From a virus: a stretch of 35,062 nucleotides of DNA. Shown here one piece after another: positions 1,843-26,681 of the stretch. The DNA lies in IMG/VR virus record IMGVR_UViG_3300007734_000617, positions 1 to 35,062 of that record. One strand, 5' to 3'. Positions within the stretch are counted from its first letter, which is position 1. Each line of letters starts with the position of its first letter. The position numbers and the translations under genes are program-made. A model generated the notes under the pieces. It saw only the letters and a list, made by a program, of their open reading frames with translations. It was not told the DNA's origin and searched no databases.

Positions 1843-2750
1843 TAGTTCGCTCCGTAACCAGAATCAGGAATGTTATCGTAGCCAATTAGGACAGTTCCCG
1901 GACGCGGTGCAAAGCTCAAGTTTGCCGAGGACATATCAAGCGCCATAGCCGCTTCAAGCTCGGAAGCGTAATTCCGGTACATTGCGGTCGTATCAAAGCC
2001 TTTGCCCTCAAAGTATTTTAGCTTTGTGAACAACACCATTAGGCGAGAAGGGTAAATGCAGGTGTCGGTATCTGCCGTAAAACTGGTCTTTACAGTACCC
2101 GTAGAGCTTAACGCCCACCCGTTAGAACGGTACTCGTAGCCTAGAAGTTCAGCGTTAGAAAAGCCAGGCCATATCTGGAAATACGAACCAAGCAAACGCC
2201 AACGGACGCGAGGGCCGGTAGAAATATAGCCTGAGAGCAGCCACTCCCATTGCTGCGCGTCCTCTGGCCCTAACATTTCCCAATGCTTCGATTTGTCCCA
2301 CATAGTACGAGGCACAAGGCTTTCGTAATCGCTAGGTAGGTCGTACTTCATCTTTTGGAAGTAAGCCGCAGCAGCAGTACCAGCCGCCGCAAAGTCTTGG
2401 TTTACCGTAACTTGGGTGGAGGAATCAACCGAGCTTATAAACGTATTCTGGTTGATGCCTGTGCCGGTCACCATGTATGTGGTGTCTAACCCTACGGTCG
2501 TAGGTATGCCGGTAATCGTCCTTGCCGCGGTAGTCCATGTTCCAGTTGTTGTCAGGAACTCGGTGCTAAACAACTTCTGTTTAGTCATCTCGCGCCAGTC
2601 AAACTTACGCAGCAGCTCGTATCCGCAAGCATTCATCAAAGCAAGAATTTGAATCACGTCCTGATTCGTGTTGCCTACTACCGAAGTAGGAGTAGAAACC
2701 CCTAATTCGTTTGTTACTTGCTGCACCAACTGGAGCATCGAACTCGACAT
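1842..2750 (-). CDS. Head-to-tail connector/tail adaptor protein
   Basis: A 302-residue protein. Its N-terminus (MLQLVQQVTNELGVSTP) and the motif LLRKFDWREMTKQ are characteristic of phage adaptor or tail tubular A-like proteins that dock below the portal. A Thr/Gly/Ala-rich insertion lies at roughly residues 65-130. The C-terminal part has helical segments with conserved Tyr and Trp (YEYRSNGWAL). It sits two bases downstream of the 175-residue gene and is followed by the tail tube gene, the order expected for connector then tail. Function is inferred from these motifs and the gene order. Confidence 0.65.
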   Translation of the reverse strand: MSSSMLQLVQQVTNELGVSTPTSVVGNTNQDVIQILALMNACGYELLRKFDWREMTKQKLFSTEFLTTTGTWTTAARTITGIPTTVGLDTTYMVTGTGINQNTFISSVDSSTQVTVNQDFAAAGTAAAAYFQKMKYDLPSDYESLVPRTMWDKSKHWEMLGPEDAQQWEWLLSGYISTGPRVRWRLLGSYFQIWPGFSNAELLGYEYRSNGWALSSTGTVKTSFTADTDTCIYPSRLMVLFTKLKYFEGKGFDTTAMYRNYASELEAAMALDMSSANLSFAPRPGTVLIGYDNIPDSGYGAN

Positions 2751-2752
2751 AA

Positions 2753-3280
2753 CTACACCTCTTTTTTGGGTCTGCCAGCCTTACGTTTTTCGCTCAACAG
2801 TTCTGCCATTTGAGCTTTTAATTCGTCTAGCTCGTTTCTAGTCTTAGCCAGCTCTGTAGAACTTTCCGTCTGATTCTTGCTGAGTAAGTAAGCCCTTGCT
2901 CTATCCCGCAAGCCCGTCCCGCCCATTCCAACCCTTTGCAATTGCCCGTCAGAAGCGGTAGCAACCTGCTCGACGGTCTGAAACTTGAGAATCTGCAATT
3001 CAGCCATCTGGTAATCGGTGAATTCCTCCGGCTGGTCTTTGTTCCAGTCTGGCAGGCTTGTACCTATTACGAGACCAGTATCAGACTTCATCTGGAAGTG
3101 CAGCCATTGACGCGGAAAACGCGCTTTATGATCTTCGCGGACAGGTTGATCTATCACGTTAGTTTTATCGCCAGGAACAATAATCCTTACAAAAGGCCGG
3201 TCTTTGTACGGGTCTTTTTCGTAGGTATAAAACTCAACGTGCAAGTGCTGATCTCCATTACCAACGTCGCTGTCTAGCAT
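2753..3280 (-). CDS. Conserved phage structural-region protein with basic C-terminal tail
   Basis: A 175-residue protein of a kind often found between capsid and connector genes in small uncultured phages. The conserved central part contains VRIIVPGDKTNVIDQPV and FPRQWLHFQM. A helical, charged stretch follows (about residues 140-165) and the last residues are RKAGRPKK, which looks like an AT-hook DNA-binding motif. The start is preceded by AGGAGAAGAAA. Function is unknown. A role in head completion or DNA contact is possible. Confidence 0.6.
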   Translation of the reverse strand: MLDSDVGNGDQHLHVEFYTYEKDPYKDRPFVRIIVPGDKTNVIDQPVREDHKARFPRQWLHFQMKSDTGLVIGTSLPDWNKDQPEEFTDYQMAELQILKFQTVEQVATASDGQLQRVGMGGTGLRDRARAYLLSKNQTESSTELAKTRNELDELKAQMAELLSEKRKAGRPKKEV

Positions 3281-4026: not shown

Positions 4027-4821
4027 TTAAATCCTTTGTGTTAATGGAAAAGTCATGGCTTTCGCCATTGCGTACAACAAACCAGAACCGCAGACTTCTA
4101 TTACTACATCTTCCTCCGCGAATTCTCGCGCTATGTTTTGGAAGTCTTTTACTTGCTGACACATCCACGGAGCCGCTTGGAACTTTTGCTCGTGAATTGT
4201 AGCCGTTATTATATTCTCACCGTCATTAGATTCCTGCTTATAAACGTGGTGTTTATCGTCGGAATAACTGGAGTCCATGCCAAACAGGTAAATCCTACGA
4301 TGCCCCTTTAGCTTGGCAAGAATCATTGCCAGCATACCGACCGTGGTAAAACCGCCCATAAGGTGTACAGGACGGTCTTTCTCGTTCTCTAGGTACTCGT
4401 ACACCCCTTCCGTCTGAACGTGGACTAGATCGACTTTAAAGCCTTCTAGCGCGTCAAATATACAGGGGTCGCATTGCGAGGCGATATAGAACTGGGTTTC
4501 CTTGCGCGGATGCTGCAAAAACCTGACGTTTTCAGGTCTTGCGTCCAGCATTACATGACCGTCTGGGACTATGCCCCGTTCTATCAACCAATCATAAGTG
4601 CCGTTCATTGACCAAACCCGAGCGCCATTCTGATACCTTGCCTTTAACTGAGGAAAGGACTCATCAAGGCTAGGCGCACCGCCAACAATACAAATACTTT
4701 CTTCGTTTGACTCCGTATCAAAATCAAACCAAGAAAGCTGCCTTTTGCAAGACAGCTCCACATTCCCAAGCATTACGCTTGGGAGTGTGTTTCCTACTAC
4801 GTCTAATACTGCTTCAACCAT
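4027..4821 (-). CDS. DUF115/MptE-like domain protein (glycosyltransferase-like fold)
   Basis: A 264-residue protein. The motif ICIVGGAPSL (residues 43-52), then NGTYDWLIERGIVPD (73-87) and DARPENV (93-99) are the hallmarks of the DUF115/MptE-like family. This family is seen in Maf-type flagellin glycosylation proteins and in many phage genomes. A later LMGGFTTVGMLAMILAKL helix and IYLFGMDSSY fit the same fold. It sits inside the head gene cluster with a one-base overlap to the decoration gene. Together with a glycosyltransferase and a FkbM methyltransferase elsewhere in the operon it suggests glycan work on virion or host surface. The substrate is unknown. Confidence 0.65.
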   Translation of the reverse strand: MVEAVLDVVGNTLPSVMLGNVELSCKRQLSWFDFDTESNEESICIVGGAPSLDESFPQLKARYQNGARVWSMNGTYDWLIERGIVPDGHVMLDARPENVRFLQHPRKETQFYIASQCDPCIFDALEGFKVDLVHVQTEGVYEYLENEKDRPVHLMGGFTTVGMLAMILAKLKGHRRIYLFGMDSSYSDDKHHVYKQESNDGENIITATIHEQKFQAAPWMCQQVKDFQNIAREFAEEDVVIEVCGSGLLYAMAKAMTFPLTQRI

Positions 4822-5372
4822 TAGGTGATCTGGCCTTGCAGGTGAGGACGGTTAATCGTTACCGTAACCGTTGAAACGGTCGAGGCAATCGTGGTCAAGT
4901 TAGCCGAGCGAGCGCCAAGAATCTGGAGACCCGCAGAAGCAAGAACCTTGACCCGACCAGCAGTACCGGACAGGAACAAAGTAACTTGCGGCGTAACGGC
5001 AACTGCCGTTTTCTTGATCACCGCATTGCCGTCGATTTGATACCAGCCGAACGTGCCAGCCAGATTAGCCGACATAGCGACTGCTACGGGGCAAGCCTGA
5101 TTACCAGTATTCGGAACAAGTACCGTTTGGTAGGTCGTTGAATTATACGAAACCAACGAACCGACCACCGTCGAAGCAACGCCAACCAGCAGGATAAACT
5201 CACCCTCGCCATAGGTCGGATCGTCAGCACGCACGATCTTACCGAGGACGTTCGGAGGCGTAGGAATGACTGAAGTCGTGCCACTCGAAACGCCGCCAGG
5301 TGAAGTTACCCCGGTGTCGATGTTTGCAATCTGAAGCAGACCGCTTTGATTCTCTACAATAGTGTAAGCCAT
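4821..5372 (-). CDS. Putative head decoration (capsid cement) protein
   Basis: A 183-residue protein immediately downstream of the major capsid gene, preceded by a strong AAGGAG ribosome site. It is Thr/Val/Gly-rich and beta-like, with the motifs GTFGWYQIDGNAVIKKT, VTLFLSGTAGRV and ILGARSAN. These are typical of phage proteins encoded just after the coat gene. The position and composition match capsid-stabilising proteins. The assignment rests on context rather than a diagnostic catalytic motif. Confidence 0.65.
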   Translation of the reverse strand: MAYTIVENQSGLLQIANIDTGVTSPGGVSSGTTSVIPTPPNVLGKIVRADDPTYGEGEFILLVGVASTVVGSLVSYNSTTYQTVLVPNTGNQACPVAVAMSANLAGTFGWYQIDGNAVIKKTAVAVTPQVTLFLSGTAGRVKVLASAGLQILGARSANLTTIASTVSTVTVTINRPHLQGQIT

Positions 5373-5384
5373 GTTTTTTCTCCT

Positions 5385-7085
5385 TTAGGCGATCAACACG
5401 CCGCAGAATTGCGGCCCGCTGCTCGTCAAGTTACCGGCCCACCCGATGAGCTTCACGATTGCGTCCTGGTTCACCGCCTGACGCTCGCCACCAATCGGAA
5501 CGAAATTACGGTCTGCGTGCGGCCTGAACATCATGTACTTCGTGTTCAAGAACCACATATGACTTGCCGTAGCAGCCGAACCGATACCACCGTCCAACAC
5601 CACGTCAGAAGCCATCCCTGCGCCATAGTATTTCAGCGAGGCAAAACCAGCACCGGCAGTTGAATTACCGCTGTCAGAAATACGCTGGATCGACTGCAAG
5701 GACTGAAGATACAGACGGTAGAAAATATTGTCTGCAACGATCAAGTCTGGCTTATCGGTTCCGCGAATCAACTGCACAGCAAGCGAATCCATGTACTGCT
5801 GGATGTTGGAAGCAGTAACAGCAGCACCACCGTTCGTTACGCCCGAATAAGCTACGGACTGCCAGAACGTATATGTTGCGCGGTTAATACCACCGTAGGT
5901 TCCAGAGGTAGGCGCATCAGGAACGGCAGCGCCGAGGCCCGTGATGTTCTTTCCGCTGTTGCCGGTCCCGTCCAGATAAATATCCGAACCAATACGGTTA
6001 GCCAGTTGCGCTTCAGCCACATTCATACGACCGTCAAGCAGGTCAATGATGGCCTCTTTGCCGCTGTTTTGAATCATTTCCAGACCGCTAATCGAAACAG
6101 CCGATGCGTACTGGGTGATACCAAACTGCGCCGCCGAAATAGGGCTGTTTTGCGACACGTTAAGCACTTCATAGCCGCTATAGCTATTGGTGTTATTGGT
6201 CGTGCTGTCATTGTACATAATCTCTTGCAGGATTACGTTACCGCCGGAAAACGTCTTGACGTTCCCACGTTCCTTTAGCCTACGCAAGAGTGCGTTGTTA
6301 TTTGTCCTAGCGTTACGTTTCGGCTCTTTATCCGAAACCTGCACATTCCTTTTATGTGCAGAGCAGACTATCTCATCGCAAGTTTTTCGCTTGCTTGGTG
6401 GCACTAATCTTTGCGCCATGACCTTTCGGCTTTCCAAGCTGCGCCAATCTACGTTTCAAGTTGCTTTCAGGTGATTGCGTAAAAGTTCCCGCCCTCGCCT
6501 TTGTCGCTAATCGTCCTCTGGCAATAGCATAAGGTGTTGGTTGAAACGAAACTTCATTTTCGTTTAACAACAAGCCTTGCGCCCTGTAATGCTTCATCCA
6601 AGACAACTCGCGCTCGCGTTTCTCAATCACCGAAACTCCTACTGGCATTGTTTCAAGCACCCGCATCTGAAACTGTCCAGCGTGATCGTTCCACGCTTCT
6701 TGCAACTTTGTAGAATTATGCTTTCCCGCTTTCAGCAAACTTCTATGCTCTCGCATTCGTTTACCCGGCTTACCCGATGTGCAACCTATGTAAGCCGCGC
6801 CGGTACTTGCATCCTCTAATCCGTATATTGTCACCATTTGGGATACCCCTCTGTGGTTGATACTTACGCTTCGCGCTCGTGGGACTCAGCTTCCGCTTTG
6901 TCCTAGTCGTTACACCTTCAGCAACCTTTTAACTTTGCCGCTTGGCTCGGTGTTGGCATCGCAGCTTTTCACCGAATTCACGAAGTTTTTTAACGTCTAA
7001 ATTAAACGTTGTCCGCAAGCTCACCCGAGCGACTTTGAATGTTGGTCGCAATGATGTCACTAACAGAACTATTGGCAAATGCCAT
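5385..7085 (-). CDS. Major capsid protein, gene split by a group I intron (join of 7005-7085 and 5385-6305)
   Basis: Exon 1 (7085 down to 7005) encodes 27 residues, beginning MAFANSSVSDIIATNIQ and ending GELADNV. It is preceded by a strong TTAAGGAG site. Without splicing it meets TAA one base into the intron. Exon 2 (6305 to 5385) continues in phase with TNNNALLRRLKERGNVKTF. The spliced protein is 333 residues and reads as a typical phage coat protein: SGLEMIQNSG and LLDGRMNVAEAQLANRIG helix, YTFWQSVAYSG, and a C-terminal VNQDAIVKLIGWAGNLTSSGPQFCGVLIA-type end. The apparent start at 6437 is inside the intron and is an artefact. It lies between scaffold and decoration genes. Fold assignment (HK97-like) is inferred. 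Confidence 0.88.
6306..7004 (-). ncRNA. Group I self-splicing intron in the major capsid gene
   Basis: The 699-nt insert has a complete group I core on the minus strand. P1 pairs exon AACGTT (7010-7005) with guide GACGTT (6997-6992), giving the required U.G at the splice site. P3 is TTCGTG (6984-6979) with CACGAG (6881-6876). P4 is TCGGTG (6975-6970) with CACCGA (6952-6947). P6 is AGCGGC (6942-6937) with GTTGCT (6925-6920). P7 is GACTA (6908-6904) with TAGTC (6370-6366). P7.1 is GGAC with GTCC. P8 is CGTAAGT (6868-6862) with ACTTGCG (6383-6377). P9 is a perfect 7-bp hairpin at 6360-6340. The intron ends in G at 6306. P7.1 points to subgroup IA. The endonuclease ORF lies in the P8 loop. Confidence 0.9.
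6373..6837 (-). CDS. GIY-YIG homing endonuclease encoded in the capsid-gene intron
   Basis: A 154-residue protein. The N-terminus TIYGLEDASTGAAYIGCTSG carries the GIY-YIG pair (IYG at 4-6, YIG at 16-18), followed by KRMREHRS with the conserved arginine. The catalytic glutamate is probably in VIEKRERELSWMKHY. The C-terminal basic part, SPESNLKRRLAQLGKPKG, resembles the NUMOD-type DNA-binding segments common in intron endonucleases. The last codons run through the 3' strand of intron helix P8, so protein and ribozyme share sequence. The enzyme would cut intronless capsid alleles and spread the intron. Confidence 0.88.
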   Translation of the reverse strand: MVTIYGLEDASTGAAYIGCTSGKPGKRMREHRSLLKAGKHNSTKLQEAWNDHAGQFQMRVLETMPVGVSVIEKRERELSWMKHYRAQGLLLNENEVSFQPTPYAIARGRLATKARAGTFTQSPESNLKRRLAQLGKPKGHGAKISATKQAKNLR

Positions 7086-15647: not shown

Positions 15648-16853
15648 TTATGCCGCTTTCTTCAATGAAATGAAAGGCTTACCATTTGCTTCTAGCGTTG
15701 CTGTCTGTCCTGTGAATTCTTGCCACCTTTGGACGATTACATCGCAGTACTTGGGGTCTAGTTCCATGCTGCGGTTGATGCGGCCTGTTTTCTCGCAGGC
15801 TATTAGGGTAGAGCCGGAGCCACCGAATAGGTCGAGGACAATGCAATTAGCAACGCTGCTGTTTTCAATAGCCCTTTGACACAATTCAACGGGCTTCATT
15901 GTTGGGTGAGTCTTGGCGTCTTTTGTCCGATCACAGTTCCAAAGCGTTGTTTGCTTCCTGTCTTTTACTCTAACTCGACCGCTACCTTCCTTCCATCCAT
16001 AAAGACAAGGTTCATTTTGCGAATGATAATCCCCCTGCGACATGGTTAAGGTTGGTTTTACCCATTGAATAGTAGATGGACGGGCTTGATGAAAGCCAGC
16101 AGATCGAAAAGCACTAATAAACTCTAAAGCTGTTATGTCGGCGTGCCACACATAAACATTGCTTCCGGGGTGAAGAACAGAATAAGCGCAAACAAAAGCG
16201 TCATGCAAAAACTCTTGTAACTTTGCGTCTTTCAAATGATCGTTTGGAACACCCTCGTAATCCACGCCATAAGGCGGGTCTGTGTGAAGCATATTTGCTT
16301 GTTCCCCATCCATCAGCCTCTCAACCGCATCAATGCTTGTCGAGTCCCCGCACATCACCCGATGCTTGCCTAGCAGCCAAACGTCCCCCAAGACGGTCAC
16401 AGGGGCTTCAGGAACGTCCGGTACAGCATCCTCGTCTGTCAGCCCCTCCGTCCCTGTCGGAGCCAGCAACGCCTCAATCTCGTCGGTGCTGAAGCCCGTC
16501 AGGTCTAGATCGAAACCCATGTCCTTCAGATCGGTAAGCTCCACCGCCAGCATTTCATCGTCCCAACCCGCATTTAAAGCTAGCTTGTTATCTGCAATAA
16601 CGTAGGCTTTCTTTTGCGCTTCTGTCAGGTGAGTCAGTCTGATGCTAGGAACGTCAGTAATCGCTAACTTCCGCGCCGCCATTACCCGTCCATGCCCTGC
16701 AATGATGCTTCCGGTCTCGTCAATCAAAACGGGATTGGTGAAGCCAAATTCTTTAATGCTTGCGGCTATTTGCGCAATTTGATTTTCAGAGTGAGTGCGG
16801 CTATTCCTGGCATACGGAATCAGCTTGTCAATCTTAACTTGTTCAATGTTCAT
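15648..16853 (-). CDS. ParB/Srx nuclease-like domain fused to DNA N6-adenine/N4-cytosine methyltransferase
   Basis: A 401-residue fusion. Residues 1-100 form a ParB-like domain with LIPYARNSRTHSENQIAQIA and IIAGHGRVMAARKL (GHGR at 53-56). After an acidic linker (about 130-150) comes the methyltransferase: catalytic TDPPYG (191-196), then LDLFGGSGSTLIACE (339-353) as the SAM-binding loop. Catalytic-before-SAM order indicates a beta-class amino-methyltransferase. Such fusions are common next to phage terminase genes. It probably methylates phage DNA to avoid restriction; the recognition sequence is unknown. Start overlaps the 55-residue gene as ATGA. Confidence 0.88.
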   Translation of the reverse strand: MNIEQVKIDKLIPYARNSRTHSENQIAQIAASIKEFGFTNPVLIDETGSIIAGHGRVMAARKLAITDVPSIRLTHLTEAQKKAYVIADNKLALNAGWDDEMLAVELTDLKDMGFDLDLTGFSTDEIEALLAPTGTEGLTDEDAVPDVPEAPVTVLGDVWLLGKHRVMCGDSTSIDAVERLMDGEQANMLHTDPPYGVDYEGVPNDHLKDAKLQEFLHDAFVCAYSVLHPGSNVYVWHADITALEFISAFRSAGFHQARPSTIQWVKPTLTMSQGDYHSQNEPCLYGWKEGSGRVRVKDRKQTTLWNCDRTKDAKTHPTMKPVELCQRAIENSSVANCIVLDLFGGSGSTLIACEKTGRINRSMELDPKYCDVIVQRWQEFTGQTATLEANGKPFISLKKAA

Positions 16854-17713: not shown

Positions 17714-18012
17714 ACCATCCCCCTTAATTGTTTAGATTGCGCCGCCATTGTTTTAACCGTAACGATAACCCCCTCGATATCCCGCACGACTGCCCTGCAA
17801 CCCAACCAGGAGCTAGCCCACGCGGTTTGCAGCGGGTTCTCCTTACCTCTACCTGCCTTGACCTCAACTAGCCAAGTAATACCCCCAAGCGAAACCATAA
17901 TGTCTGGAACGCCTTTGCCGAGGGCAGCTAGGGACTGGACAGAGCATCCCAACTTGCGGAATGCGTCTACTATTTCCGTCTGATTTGCGTCTATTTTGGC
18001 AGCGCGGCGCAT
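17710..18012 (-). CDS. VRR-NUC-like PD-(D/E)XK nuclease
   Basis: A 100-residue protein with the compact core of phage VRR-NUC or Holliday-junction-type nucleases: KIDANQTEIVDAFRKLGCSV at the start, GVPDIMV with Asp37, and WLVEVKAG with Glu50 and Lys52 as the EXK catalytic pair. It overlaps the Ref-like gene by 22 nt and sits in a run of nuclease genes. It probably resolves or trims recombination or replication intermediates. Confidence 0.8.
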   Translation of the reverse strand: MRRAAKIDANQTEIVDAFRKLGCSVQSLAALGKGVPDIMVSLGGITWLVEVKAGRGKENPLQTAWASSWLGCRAVVRDIEGVIVTVKTMAAQSKQLRGMV

Positions 18013-18281
18013 AGTTTTTTGACCTCCTCCAACAAGTAAAGTTCTGTCCCATATCTAGCCTCAAACCTCCGTTGCGATTGGTCACGGCTAACTACCTCAT
18101 CATTTCTTCCAGACCTGTGATGTTGCTGGCACAAAGGTAATACAAACATCTCACCCCGCCTACGCCCTCCTGAAAGCATATGGTGGATTTCGGCTGGACT
18201 ATTTATCTGTAAATCTAGTTTGCAAACAATACACCCAAAGTCACGGAGCTTTGCTTGCCAAGCCGCTTCTGCTTTGTTCAT
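17991..18281 (-). CDS. Ref-like RecA-dependent nuclease
   Basis: A 96-residue protein matching the C-terminal nuclease domain of phage P1 Ref. Features are WQAKLRDFGCIVCKLDLQ with a CxxC pair, AEIHHMLSGGRRRG with the His-His of the HNH fold, LPLCQQHHRSGRN, and the family end FEARYGTELYLLEEVKKL. Ref cuts DNA in RecA-coated displacement loops. The ribosome site AGGAGGG lies inside the overlapping 49-residue frame. Neighbours are recombination genes. Confidence 0.8.
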   Translation of the reverse strand: MNKAEAAWQAKLRDFGCIVCKLDLQINSPAEIHHMLSGGRRRGEMFVLPLCQQHHRSGRNDEVVSRDQSQRRFEARYGTELYLLEEVKKLCAALPK

Positions 18282-18390
18282 ACGCCTTTGCCCTCCTTTT
18301 AGCGTTTATCTCTGTTTTGTGCTTTTGCCGGTAACGCAAGTTTTGTTGCGCCACCTTGCGAGGGTTTGCGATGCGCCAAAGACGGATCAT
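18241..18390 (-). CDS. Small basic protein overlapping the Ref-like gene
   Basis: A 49-codon frame starts with ATG overlapping the upstream stop as ATGA and ends 41 nt inside the Ref-like gene. The peptide is very basic: RLWRIANPRKVAQQNLRYRQ, KHKTEINAKRRAKAY. The coupled start and R/K-rich N-P-R-K...RYRQKHK pattern resemble small phage DNA-binding peptides. The frame could also be a bridge that re-initiates ribosomes for the next gene. Confidence 0.5.
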   Translation of the reverse strand: MIRLWRIANPRKVAQQNLRYRQKHKTEINAKRRAKAYEQSRSGLASKAP

Positions 18391-18761
18391 GAGTGAGCTC
18401 CCCGCCGACTGCTCATTTCAGGAGTTACCAATTTATGCCACCGCAGATGGCACTTAACACAAAGCAGCGCAACAGGCCATTTGTCGGCTTCATCACCAAA
18501 AATATGAAATGGAGCCCAATGGTGAACTTCTGCCCCATCAGCGCCACAAACGCAGCATTGCCTATAATCTACAATTTTCGGGATATATTCGGGCAAATCC
18601 TCCCAGTCTTCTATCTCCGACCGTTTTATAAATCTGCCCATGCATTTATTGTCACAAACAGATTTAACGACCCAAGACCCACTAGCGGTTTTGAGCTTAA
18701 ATAACGTGATTGAGTGATTACATTGACTGCACCCACGAACTAAAATGTCGTGCTTGCTCAT
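18387..18761 (-). CDS. Zinc-finger/HNH-type putative nuclease
   Basis: A 124-residue protein with two Cys-rich parts. The N-terminal part has GCSQCNHSITLFKL and SVCDNKCMGRF. The C-terminal part has QCCVCGADGAEVHHWAPFH and ALLCVKCHLRWHKL, an HNH-like arrangement with structural zinc cysteines. It lies 10 nt after the CHC2 gene and couples to the 49-residue frame by ATGA. It is probably a DNase of the recombination or replication module rather than a homing enzyme. Confidence 0.65.
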   Translation of the reverse strand: MSKHDILVRGCSQCNHSITLFKLKTASGSWVVKSVCDNKCMGRFIKRSEIEDWEDLPEYIPKIVDYRQCCVCGADGAEVHHWAPFHIFGDEADKWPVALLCVKCHLRWHKLVTPEMSSRRGAHS

Positions 18762-18968: not shown

Positions 18969-19319
18969 TCATGTTGTTACTCCTTTTTGTGCCGGTATTT
19001 TTATACCCGCGTGATGACTCGCTGCATTCAACCATTCCAGCCACTCCGAAAACCGCTTTTTACCGTACCTGCTCGTCCTTCTGCCTAACATCACTACCCC
19101 GCCCTCAAGCCCTGGCGCAAGTCTGGGTGCTGTTTCGCCCTCAAAGGTCGCAGTCAGTACATTTTTCCAATCTTCGTCGGTTAGCCAGCACATAACCCCG
19201 TTAACAGGCCATTGCTTTTGTTCAGCCCAAGCTCGCAAAATAGGCCATTGCAAAGCGTTTTGCCCTGCGTTTCTCCGTTCCTCGCAAACTGGGCATAAAG
19301 TTACAAAGGCGATTGTCAT
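18969..19319 (-). CDS. ninB: NinB-like recombination protein
   Basis: A 116-residue protein. NALQWPILRAWAEQKQWP, then LTDEDWKNVLTATFEGE, then LAPGLEGGVVMLGRRTS, and the helix RFSEWLEWLNAASHHAGI match NinB (lambda Orf), a recombination mediator that binds single-stranded DNA and helps load recombinase. The N-terminus has an unusual CPVCEERRN. I chose the ATG at 19319 because it overlaps the upstream TGA as ATGA; an ATG at 19334 is possible. Confidence 0.8.
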   Translation of the reverse strand: MTIAFVTLCPVCEERRNAGQNALQWPILRAWAEQKQWPVNGVMCWLTDEDWKNVLTATFEGETAPRLAPGLEGGVVMLGRRTSRYGKKRFSEWLEWLNAASHHAGIKIPAQKGVTT

Positions 19320-20686
19320 TTCAATAATCTCCATGCTGTTTCTGCCACTCTTGGAACTTGTCCGTTTCCAATGGCTTTAAGTCTGTCCATTCTAGCGGCC
19401 ACCCCATTAGCTACACGAGGAACGGCATCTTCCCAGCTACCATTTTTCCAAGCCGTTTTGCCGTAGTGTGCCAAAAGTCGTGACAATGCTTGCATAGTGT
19501 CTGAATATTCTCGGGTTTGTTGTAAGTCTTGTTTTGGTCTATGTGGTGCGCTTGTAATGCTTTCACATAACCGCACGCCTCGCATTTCTTCTTCAAGTGC
19601 TTTCGCGCACGCCATGAATAACCGTGCTTCGTCAAATCGATGCGCGTGTTCGCACAATTTAGCGAGCAAAATCGCCGCCTCTGAAATGCCGACAAATCTT
19701 CCAATCTCCCGTTGAATCTCTTGCGCTGCATGACCGTACCGCAACACTCGCATAACTTCGTTTTTTCTGCCTTGCGCTCCATTATTCATCCCCATAAACC
19801 AAAAACACATTTTAACATGGCTTATGGGTTGTATGGAACTCCATTCATCAGGCCAGCCCATCATTTTTTCAACCCACGTTGGGTTCAGTTGGCCAGAGTT
19901 TTGATCCACCGATTGACTCAGCATTATTTGTTTCCCTATTGCAATCCGGCGTTGAATTGAAGGATTGCTCATATTCCCCCGATCCCGATTGTCGGATGCT
20001 GTAGGTGTTGGAAACCTCCGCAGCGCCACCGTTGCTGCTAATGTTGGCGTGTTTCTGAGGAATTTCGATGGAGATGCTGCTTCCTTTGCATTGTGTGCTG
20101 TTGGCGTTGGCCAATTTTCCATGCGTTTCTTGAGTGCCTTCCGACTGTTGCTCCCTCCGTCTAATCCCCCTGTCGTTGGCGTGTGGAAAAAAGTTTCGTC
20201 GTTCGGCTCTGATCCAAATTCGCTCTCTAAGATGGGGCGCACCAACGTCTGCCGCTGATACAACTCCCCACTTTGCATCAAACCCCAGCGCGGCAAGGTC
20301 ACAGAGGACGGTTTCAAGTCCTCGAATAGTGAGCATTGCGCTGTTTTCAATGAATGCGTACTGGGGTCGTACCTCCCCAATAATCCTTGCCATGTGTTTC
20401 CACATTCCTGATTTGCTTCCGGTAATGCCTGCGCCTCTACCTGCTGAGCTGATGTCCTGGCAAGGAAAACCTCCCGATACGACTTGCACAATTCCTCGCC
20501 ACGGCTTTCCGTCAAAAGTTTGAACGTCATCCCAAATCGGAAAAGGCGGGAGAATGCCGTCATTTTGTCTTGCGACAAGTACGCTTGCGGGATAGGGTTC
20601 CCACTCAACTGCACAGACGGTTCGCCAACCGAGCAGTTTTCCCCCGAGTATGCCTCCTCCAGCGCCCGCGAAAAGAGCCAGCTCAT
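19316..20686 (-). CDS. Overlapping-frame partner of the cytosine methyltransferase, carrying its C-terminal motif X
   Basis: A 456-codon frame starting four bases after the methyltransferase ATG (ATGAATGAG). Over 820 bp it is read in a second frame of the same DNA. It looks genuine: SYREVFLARTSAQ, THSLKTAQCSLFEDL, LPRWGLMQSGELY, NWPTPTAHNAKEAASPSKFL and LNPTWVEKMMGWPDEW form a conserved pattern seen in phage methyltransferase loci. Residues 301-425 are the shadow of the HNH gene. The last residues, RLKAIGNGQVPRVAETAW, are methyltransferase motif X, normally in the other frame. It may form a split enzyme with the 273-residue protein. Whether the full 456-residue product is made is unknown. Confidence 0.65.
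   Translation of the reverse strand: MSWLFSRALEEAYSGENCSVGEPSVQLSGNPIPQAYLSQDKMTAFSRLFRFGMTFKLLTESRGEELCKSYREVFLARTSAQQVEAQALPEANQECGNTWQGLLGRYDPSTHSLKTAQCSLFEDLKPSSVTLPRWGLMQSGELYQRQTLVRPILESEFGSEPNDETFFHTPTTGGLDGGSNSRKALKKRMENWPTPTAHNAKEAASPSKFLRNTPTLAATVALRRFPTPTASDNRDRGNMSNPSIQRRIAIGKQIMLSQSVDQNSGQLNPTWVEKMMGWPDEWSSIQPISHVKMCFWFMGMNNGAQGRKNEVMRVLRYGHAAQEIQREIGRFVGISEAAILLAKLCEHAHRFDEARLFMACAKALEEEMRGVRLCESITSAPHRPKQDLQQTREYSDTMQALSRLLAHYGKTAWKNGSWEDAVPRVANGVAARMDRLKAIGNGQVPRVAETAWRLLK
19411..19782 (-). CDS. HNH endonuclease nested in the methyltransferase locus
   Basis: A 123-residue protein in a third frame. The N-terminal zinc finger is LCECCGTVMQRKRF with RRFCSLNC. The catalytic part is KKCEACGYVKALQAHHIDQN followed by NIQTLCKHCHDFWH, the HNH signature. 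It lies in a roughly 454-nt insertion just where the methyltransferase frame ends. Directly after its TAG, the same frame reads LMGWPLEWTDLKPLETDK, a second copy of the motif found before the gene. A selfish homing endonuclease is the likeliest role. Confidence 0.8.
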   Translation of the reverse strand: MERKAEKTKLCECCGTVMQRKRFNGRLEDLSAFQRRRFCSLNCANTRIDLTKHGYSWRARKHLKKKCEACGYVKALQAHHIDQNKTYNKPENIQTLCKHCHDFWHTTAKRLGKMVAGKMPFLV

Positions 20687-20690
20687 TCAT
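19869..20690 (-). CDS. dcm: C5-cytosine DNA methyltransferase, truncated before motif X
   Basis: A 273-residue protein. Motif I is LFAGAGGGILGG (6-17), motif IV is GGFPCQDISSAG with catalytic Cys77, motif VI is ENS (115-117), and motif VIII is HLRERIWI (153-160). The frame stops at KLWPTEPNVG, exactly where relatives continue with GRVADGVA and motif X. That motif X lies 454 nt further on in another frame, behind the HNH gene. The protein alone lacks part of the SAM site, so it may need the overlapping-frame product, as in two-subunit C5 enzymes, or be inactive. Start overlaps the upstream stop as ATGA. Confidence 0.85.
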   Translation of the reverse strand: MNELALFAGAGGGILGGKLLGWRTVCAVEWEPYPASVLVARQNDGILPPFPIWDDVQTFDGKPWRGIVQVVSGGFPCQDISSAGRGAGITGSKSGMWKHMARIIGEVRPQYAFIENSAMLTIRGLETVLCDLAALGFDAKWGVVSAADVGAPHLRERIWIRAERRNFFPHANDRGIRRREQQSEGTQETHGKLANANSTQCKGSSISIEIPQKHANISSNGGAAEVSNTYSIRQSGSGEYEQSFNSTPDCNRETNNAESIGGSKLWPTEPNVG

Positions 20691-25829: not shown

Positions 25830-26251
25830 GCGTAAGGTCTTGTCCCAGTTTTGTCAATAATTAACGCAGTCTTGCGGGGGGTAACACCCTCAGACGGTAT
25901 TGAAAGATGCGTCCAGCGATTATGCTCGCGTATCACTTGGTCGTAATCTAGATCACTTGCAATGATTGCTTTAACCACTTCATCCGGTGTCATGCCAGGA
26001 ACCCGTATGTCAGCGGCGCATCCAGTCCGGTGCTGGCTAGAGTCCTTACTACCCACGGCATCATTGACCGCTTTTGACCTAAAAGCTGAGTTTATAAGGA
26101 TATTACGGTCATCTAGTACCGACCTTACAACCTCCAAAAACTCAGCTAACCGAACAAGATTAGCCAACTCCTTATCCGTAGGCGTGTTGTCAAACTCACG
26201 ATGGTCTGTATGGGTAAGTTCCTCTAGGGAGAAATGCTCACTTAACTGCAT
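25826..26251 (-). CDS. Endolysin, M15-type D-Ala-D-Ala carboxypeptidase/L-Ala-D-Glu peptidase
   Basis: A 141-residue protein. [18 protein letters not shown] at the start, [15 protein letters not shown], then the zinc motif [10 protein letters not shown] (His74 and Asp81) and WTHLSI with the third ligand His115; Glu109 is the likely catalytic base. This is the M15_3 peptidase fold of many phage endolysins. No signal peptide, so it needs the holin two genes upstream. It overlaps the HNH gene by 14 nt and ends the late operon. Confidence 0.88.
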
Positions 26252-26681
26252 TTTTCTTCTCCATCATTTTCTTTCTTGCAGGATGGTTATCACCAGACAG
26301 TCGTTTCCTGTCATGGTTATATCGGCCTTTCTGCATCATGTCATTAGAGTTGTCTTTGGGCGTACCGAGGAAAAGATGGTTAGGATTAAAACATTTTCTA
26401 ACATCGCAGGTATGGCAAACAAACATTCCTTTAGGTACTTGCCCACGAAACAATTGGTAAGAGTATTTGTGCGCCGTGAATACACCGCTTTTAACTGAGC
26501 CAAATTGACCGTATCCAGTTTGTTTGAATATAGCGCCATCCCATATCCAACAATCATTTGGTTTTGCATCTTTATCTAAATGAGCAAGAAAACGGCAATC
26601 ATTGCTACACCACTTCCCCATAGAACCAGTTGGGGTAAATGATTTTTTGCATGACTGGCATAGCCGTTCTTTGTAGATCAT
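26238..26681 (-). CDS. HNH homing endonuclease in the lysis cassette
   Basis: A 147-residue protein with an N-terminal zinc finger ([22 protein letters not shown]) and an HNH_3-type nuclease: [55 protein letters not shown]. It separates holin and endolysin and overlaps both. Likely a free-standing selfish nuclease. Confidence 0.85.

Follow-up and report, generated by a model that had tools for sequence, protein, structure and literature searches.

An HNH endonuclease element in a two-frame phage C5-cytosine methyltransferase appears to have moved motif X between overlapping chains

The methyltransferase locus and its overlapping frames

The DNA considered here (the window) is an IMG/VR virus record of 35,062 bases, the minus strand of which carries a C5-cytosine methyltransferase locus composed of an alpha chain (frame A), an overlapping beta chain (frame B) and, within an insert, a gene for an HNH endonuclease (Table 1). 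Frame A is recognised by both Pfam (PF00145, 5.4e-28) and PHROG (phrog_363, 1.4e-56), terminates with EPNVG followed by TGA at 19871–19869, and lacks motif X. Frame B starts 4 bases downstream of the A start and wholly overlaps A, with an overlap of 816 nt, and contains a motif IX-like segment (LNPTWVEKMMGWPDEW), a spacer encoded over the HNH gene and a C-terminal motif X. The phage also possesses a second methyltransferase, encoded by a ParB-N6/N4 methyltransferase fusion gene at 15648–16853 (phrog_498, 2.6e-162).

Table 1. Features of the methyltransferase locus, in positions of the window
Feature	Positions	Strand	Basis
Frame A: C5-cytosine methyltransferase alpha chain, 273 aa, motifs I-VIII	19869–20690	minus	Pfam, PHROG, relatives
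Frame B: overlapping beta chain, 456 aa, +1 relative to A	19316–20686	minus	phrog_1008 (1.6e-30), stop-free
Inserted element, 454 nt (3n+1)	19415–19868	minus	Alignment with L006 and L009; ends uncertain by a few nt
Motif IX-like copy carried by the insert, KMMGWPDEWSSIQP, read in frame B	19826–19867	minus	Common to other HNH-bearing loci
B residues ~268–370 (motif IX-like segment and part over HNH): predicted helical bundle	19577–19885	minus	AlphaFold block means of 78–95 pLDDT
HNH endonuclease gene, 123 aa, third frame (B is HNH frame +2)	19411–19782	minus	Pfam, PHROG, alignment
Relic of the native motif IX segment, (TAG)LMGWPLEWTDLKP, in the HNH frame past its stop	19372–19413	minus	Sequence comparison
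Motif X segment RVANGVAARMDRLKAIGNGQVPRVAETAWRLLK, formerly frame A, now B C-terminus	19319–19417	minus	Sequence comparison

Frame B is a real gene with an overlapping reading frame of its own. In the window it is free of stops over A, where 3.3 are expected, and remains open through the HNH gene against an expectation of 6.5. Across 70 distinct genes, the B frame over A holds 0 stops versus the 375.9 expected from synonymous-codon shuffling of A, with the third frame serving as control (1230 stops versus 1032.6 expected), and a first set of ten genes gave 0 versus 48 (L017, with a wrong start, was disregarded in that count). A frame held open by chance is ruled out by these codon shuffles. 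Were B not a protein, and its open frame a by-product of the codon usage of A with only A and HNH of consequence, the absence of a Pfam family for B would be explained; this is hard to square with the stop counts over the 70 genes, a third frame that lies above expectation, membership of the phrog_1008 family and HNH genes that start 0–9 nt past the B stop, and is considered scarcely tenable.

A profile of B found no match in Pfam and no meaningful match among the solved structures of the PDB, so the assignment of motif IX rests on position and on likeness to single-chain relatives. We infer that the WLMGWPxGW segment of B is motif IX because the single-chain gp70 of phage ShiLan carries RLAPAFSEWMMGWPAGW directly before motif X, in one frame; the WVEWLMGWPxGW of B and gp70 agree in position, with a weak BLASTP match (E 0.005). 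ShiLan gp70 (L123:4221-5510) is a C5 methyltransferase with a beta-like C-terminal half, and it retains a remnant of an overlapping beta frame (4570–4986), giving it the look of a two-frame fusion brought about by a frame change.

The insert and its HNH gene

The insert was delimited by alignment with L006, a relative whose methyltransferase core is 92% identical to that of the window and which lacks the insert. A single gap of exactly 454 nt results, running from right after GTGGGTYGA to GTRGCTAATGGGG, past which RVANGVAARMDRLKAIGN is read in frame B. This bears out the preliminary description, of which all letters and positions proved correct, and in which the first frame was held to end at NVG, with its continuation lying 454 nt on and one frame off, and the inserted DNA was held to contain an HNH gene; the HNH open reading frame is matched by Pfam (PF01844, 6.9e-05) and by PHROG (HNH, 2.3e-11). 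The insert is missing from L006, L009, L010 and L013, of which L006 and L009 have the nearest cores. L006 was used solely for the insert boundary because of a slip in its upstream G tract. Runs of 9 to 11 G occur at one and the same place, just past motif IV of A, at L006:3245-3254, L007:1446-1456, L009:3245-3254, L021:3246-3254 and L025:1864-1872; 10 or 9 G (L006, L009, L025) shift A into the B frame, and the 11 of L007 leave it in frame. These length differences may reflect phase variation or assembly error.

The insert consists of a replacement motif IX for B, followed by the HNH gene. Of the two MGWP segments at the locus, the upstream copy came with the insert and reads KLMGWPDDWTSLQP in HNH-bearing relatives. 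The downstream copy is native: the HNH frame stops with TAG at 19413–19411 and continues with LMGWPLEWTDLKPLETDKFQEWQKQHGDY, and the 95-nt end segment is 94.7% identical to L006. The motif duplication proposed earlier is thus correct as regards a second MGWP segment past the HNH stop, but not as regards its origin. The two segments share 25 of 42 nt, which rules out a simple tandem duplication and therefore indicates replacement by a diverged copy in place of a local duplication. Similarly, the three frames said to be used in one 550-bp stretch do all carry genes, but within the insert frame A has stops and only B and HNH are open. The inserts are 79–85% identical between phages with methyltransferase cores 73–81% identical, and this divergence of element versus host, along with the presence or absence of the insert, agrees with what is expected of a mobile element.

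Alignment of the HNH proteins reveals the invariant residues C11, C14, C67, C70, H79, H80, N92, C97, C100 and H101, and the catalytic and zinc residues of the window's copy are intact. No stop adjoins this HNH gene upstream, that of alpha being 86 nt off; its translation would need either a start of its own or re-initiation from the A stop at that distance. A search for the HNH gene in plasmids returned none. Further nuclease-like genes lie elsewhere in the window, namely a GIY-YIG-like endonuclease (6373–6837, by eye), a member of the RecA-dependent nuclease family (17991–18281, Pfam 1.3e-14), a weak HNH match (18387–18761) and an HNH-like open reading frame (26238–26681, by eye).

Group I introns commonly carry HNH genes, and taking out 454 nt would put A back in frame; both points would suit a self-splicing intron (or intein) harbouring the HNH gene, with splicing restoring an A chain that includes motif X. 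A search of the window against Rfam at the gathering threshold gave no match, and a relaxed search (E up to 10) of the insert region gave no intron match. This absence of an Rfam match speaks against a group I or II intron. In addition, only ~82 nt of the insert lie outside the HNH open reading frame, the insert carries a beta C-terminus, and introns need not keep a host frame open, yet this insert does. The analogous ShiLan insert is likewise without intron or intein signal (PMC11855218). A spliced RNA restoring the first frame is hence unsupported, the host frame over HNH being selectively open, and splicing is regarded as very unlikely.

Relatives of the locus and the frame that keeps motif X

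The survey covered 80 loci, with both frames found in 76. In 71 of these 76, B lies in the +1 frame and has >400 nt in common with A, motif X resides in A and HNH is absent. In such uninterrupted relatives A runs on into motif X (GRVADGVAARVDRLKAIGNGQVP) and B ends with LNPTWVEWLMGWPLGWTDLKPLETDK, the same bases serving both. The intact two-frame state is displayed by L010, L013, L015, L016, L019 and L020; in L010, L013 and others, A unites motifs I-VIII and X on one chain (Pfam 4.7e-34) and ends with RVDRLKAIGNGQVP. Throughout the survey, motif X in B was seen only together with an HNH insert. The earlier proposal that an HNH insertion moved motif X to the other frame is supported by the relatives, since X lies in A without the insert and in B with it. 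The accompanying view of B as a second frame that had caught this tail is correct in that B ends in X, but incomplete, B being a gene in its own right with its IX-like segment present even in uninterrupted relatives.

The same element occupies the same place in ~20 other viral contigs and in one Burkholderiales contig. Chance is excluded because the order of the window is kept in the ~20 viral contigs, where the B frame over HNH is without exception free of stops; no relative was found to have the same order without the insertion. The window's group, with 21 distinct HNH proteins, has a 3n+1 insert and HNH in the third frame; A reaches its stop within a few residues of the insertion site, and it is B, not A, that continues through HNH into motif X. 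Relatives of the HNH protein down to ~40% identity likewise lie inside C5-methyltransferase genes, and in most HNH-bearing relatives it is alpha whose frame extends without a stop across B and HNH alike and which retains X. In 44 of 56 such alpha-type loci the HNH open reading frame opens at the stop of the IX-bearing beta, with the start codon 0–9 nt past that stop in 41 of the 44, which is, judged by its arrangement, a layout of termination and putative re-initiation.

At nested loci motif X lies in the host frame, and in none of them in another frame. Given also that X in B was seen only with an HNH insert, X ends up joined to one or other of the two chains in every case. On the HNH tree, parsimony counts 5 changes of host frame, of which well supported branches force only 1, so repeated exchange of the host frame is suggested. 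A different HNH-like open reading frame stands at the same site and in the same frame relation in L007 (1163–2419), where B again reaches motif X, and this suggests that the IX/X site may have been invaded by more than one HNH family.

Two isolated phages are among the nested cases. In Komagataeibacter phage phiKX1 (L119, LC644975), alpha spans 1348–2994, beta 1358–2482 and HNH 2486–3004; in Staphylococcus phage CUB-EPI_14 (L118, ON325435; G+C 0.35), HNH lies at 2501–2983 inside an annotated methyltransferase, with 0 stops in the host frame over HNH versus 11.1 expected. The nested HNH is without annotation in both, as is the 548-aa methyltransferase of phiKX1. L097 and L110 have an in-frame stop in the nested HNH with the methyltransferase frame open, which probably marks HNH copies in decay that leave the host gene intact.

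Across HNH, the host frame of 83 nested copies contains 0 stops versus 358.6 expected, and a control frame 296 versus 258.9. The free-standing members of this HNH family have 35 stops versus 42.5 expected, all of them in five clear copies and none in L050, whose context is unclear. These counts bear on the possibility that the insertion killed the methyltransferase, leaving A as a truncated remnant, B open by chance and HNH persisting as a selfish gene. An A without motif X could indeed mean an inactive alpha in a decaying locus. Against such decay, ~20 relatives retain the order and the open frames, B is open over HNH in every relative and reaches motif X, the free-standing copies do have stops in that frame, and the host-frame peptide is conserved more strongly than the control frame; loss of the enzyme is accordingly judged unlikely.

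Conservation of the peptide encoded over HNH was assessed against a null in which synonymous substitutions were re-placed at random. In the window's group the host-frame peptide is conserved beyond expectation in 134 of 134 pairs (mean z 2.93), and in some other groups it is similarly conserved. The control frame also exceeds the null (mean z 1.21), so that selection at the peptide level over HNH is moderately supported. AlphaFold predicts the helical bundle listed in Table 1, with block means <50 for most of the remainder of B, and for the alpha-type chain L060 a good core with a low-confidence spacer over HNH. A fold search with the B model returned generic helical repeats only (Foldseek E 0.29 or worse; best Z 7.4, a helical bundle), and no relative is claimed. 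A functional spacer over HNH is possible. It is a rather doubtful extension, put forward tentatively, that the HNH stretch, read in the methyltransferase frame, might encode a helical module, folded and selected in its own right, that links IX to X; the alternative frame of a selfish gene would then have turned into a structural component of the host enzyme, with X able to pass between overlapping subunits.

Proposed mechanism and comparison with known systems

From what is directly observed, namely the anatomy, the insert boundaries, the conservation, the open frames and the presence or absence of the element, we infer a course of events in which all three proteins would be translated. In the uninterrupted state, one and the same DNA would encode beta's motif IX and alpha's motif X. 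An HNH endonuclease element would enter this doubly constrained IX/X site and bring a replacement motif IX, by which beta is proposed to survive. In the usual version the event would be frame-neutral, with alpha reading through HNH and retaining X, beta stopping, and HNH being re-initiated at the beta stop. In the window's group, with its 3n+1 insert, alpha would stop right past motif VIII, and beta would read through HNH and gain X. The two proteins could then assemble as I-VIII plus IX-X and methylate DNA. By cutting empty alleles at the IX/X site, and being copied in with the replacement IX, the HNH element would spread by homing. A two-chain C5 methyltransferase with an HNH element at a doubly constrained site, and with X handed to beta, is probably the best explanation of the locus overall; the insertion of HNH appears to have moved an essential motif between overlapping proteins without breaking the enzyme.

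The proposed course has counterparts among split genes and two-chain methyltransferases. The nrdA gene of phage Aeh1 is reportedly split by mobE into genes in pieces, with function kept. A free-standing HNH-type insertion would there, as here, split an enzyme gene with function maintained; at the window's locus, one piece would additionally have been re-joined to an overlapping partner gene via a frame change. For M.EcoHK31I, Lee et al. are said to have reported in 1995 that the two chains overlap in different frames. Its large chain carries motifs I-VIII and X, together with the predicted target-recognition domain, and its small chain carries motif IX (PMC3404938). The uninterrupted relatives resemble it, with I-VIII and X on one chain and a putative IX on the other; M.EcoHK31I differs in having no HNH insert, whereas in the window X has shifted to the second chain. 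M.AquI divides its motifs between a chain with I-VIII and a chain with IX-X, and complementation by fragments is on record for several C5 enzymes (PMC3404938). In its anatomy the window after insertion resembles M.AquI (I-VIII / IX-X, with the presumptive IX), but its chains share 816 nt in different frames, with HNH inside the second.

The closest parallel of the insert itself is the ShiLan domain, first described in PMC9957025, an HNH concealed out of frame within the DNA methylase of a mycobacteriophage (Arsenault, Gosselin, Gogarten 2025; PMC11855218). Its host frame is stop-free, it gives no intron or intein signal and its distribution is disjunct (PMC11855218), all of which it shares with the window's insert, the signals there being those sought in Rfam, as it does the likeness of the first insert residues to those past the insertion site. 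The host of the ShiLan insert, gp65, is however an N6/N4 methylase (PF01555) with HNH_3, as opposed to PF00145 with PF01844 in the window; the two HNH proteins resemble one another weakly (pairwise BLASTP E 7e-04, 23% identity), and the host frame is HNH+1 in ShiLan versus HNH+2 in the window. Furthermore, no second overlapping subunit or motif transfer is described for ShiLan, and the text of PMC11855218 mentions neither subunits nor EcoHK31I nor motif IX. On sequence grounds, the two inserts would be of the same kind and of different lineage. The mode of HNH translation is left open in the ShiLan paper (PMC11855218), and for this question the C5 lineage may offer an answer in re-initiation of HNH at the small-subunit stop.

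A homing-type endonuclease could thus settle in a gene with no need of splicing because its DNA can be read in two frames, and where the gene encodes two overlapping subunits of an enzyme, its entry could also transfer an essential motif between them. The nested HNH genes missed in phiKX1 and CUB-EPI_14 are a warning to annotators. Transfer of a motif between two overlapping genes found no description in the literature searched. Phage methylases that conceal an HNH gene out of frame are already known from ShiLan; what is new in the present case is the two-frame recipient and the motif transfer.
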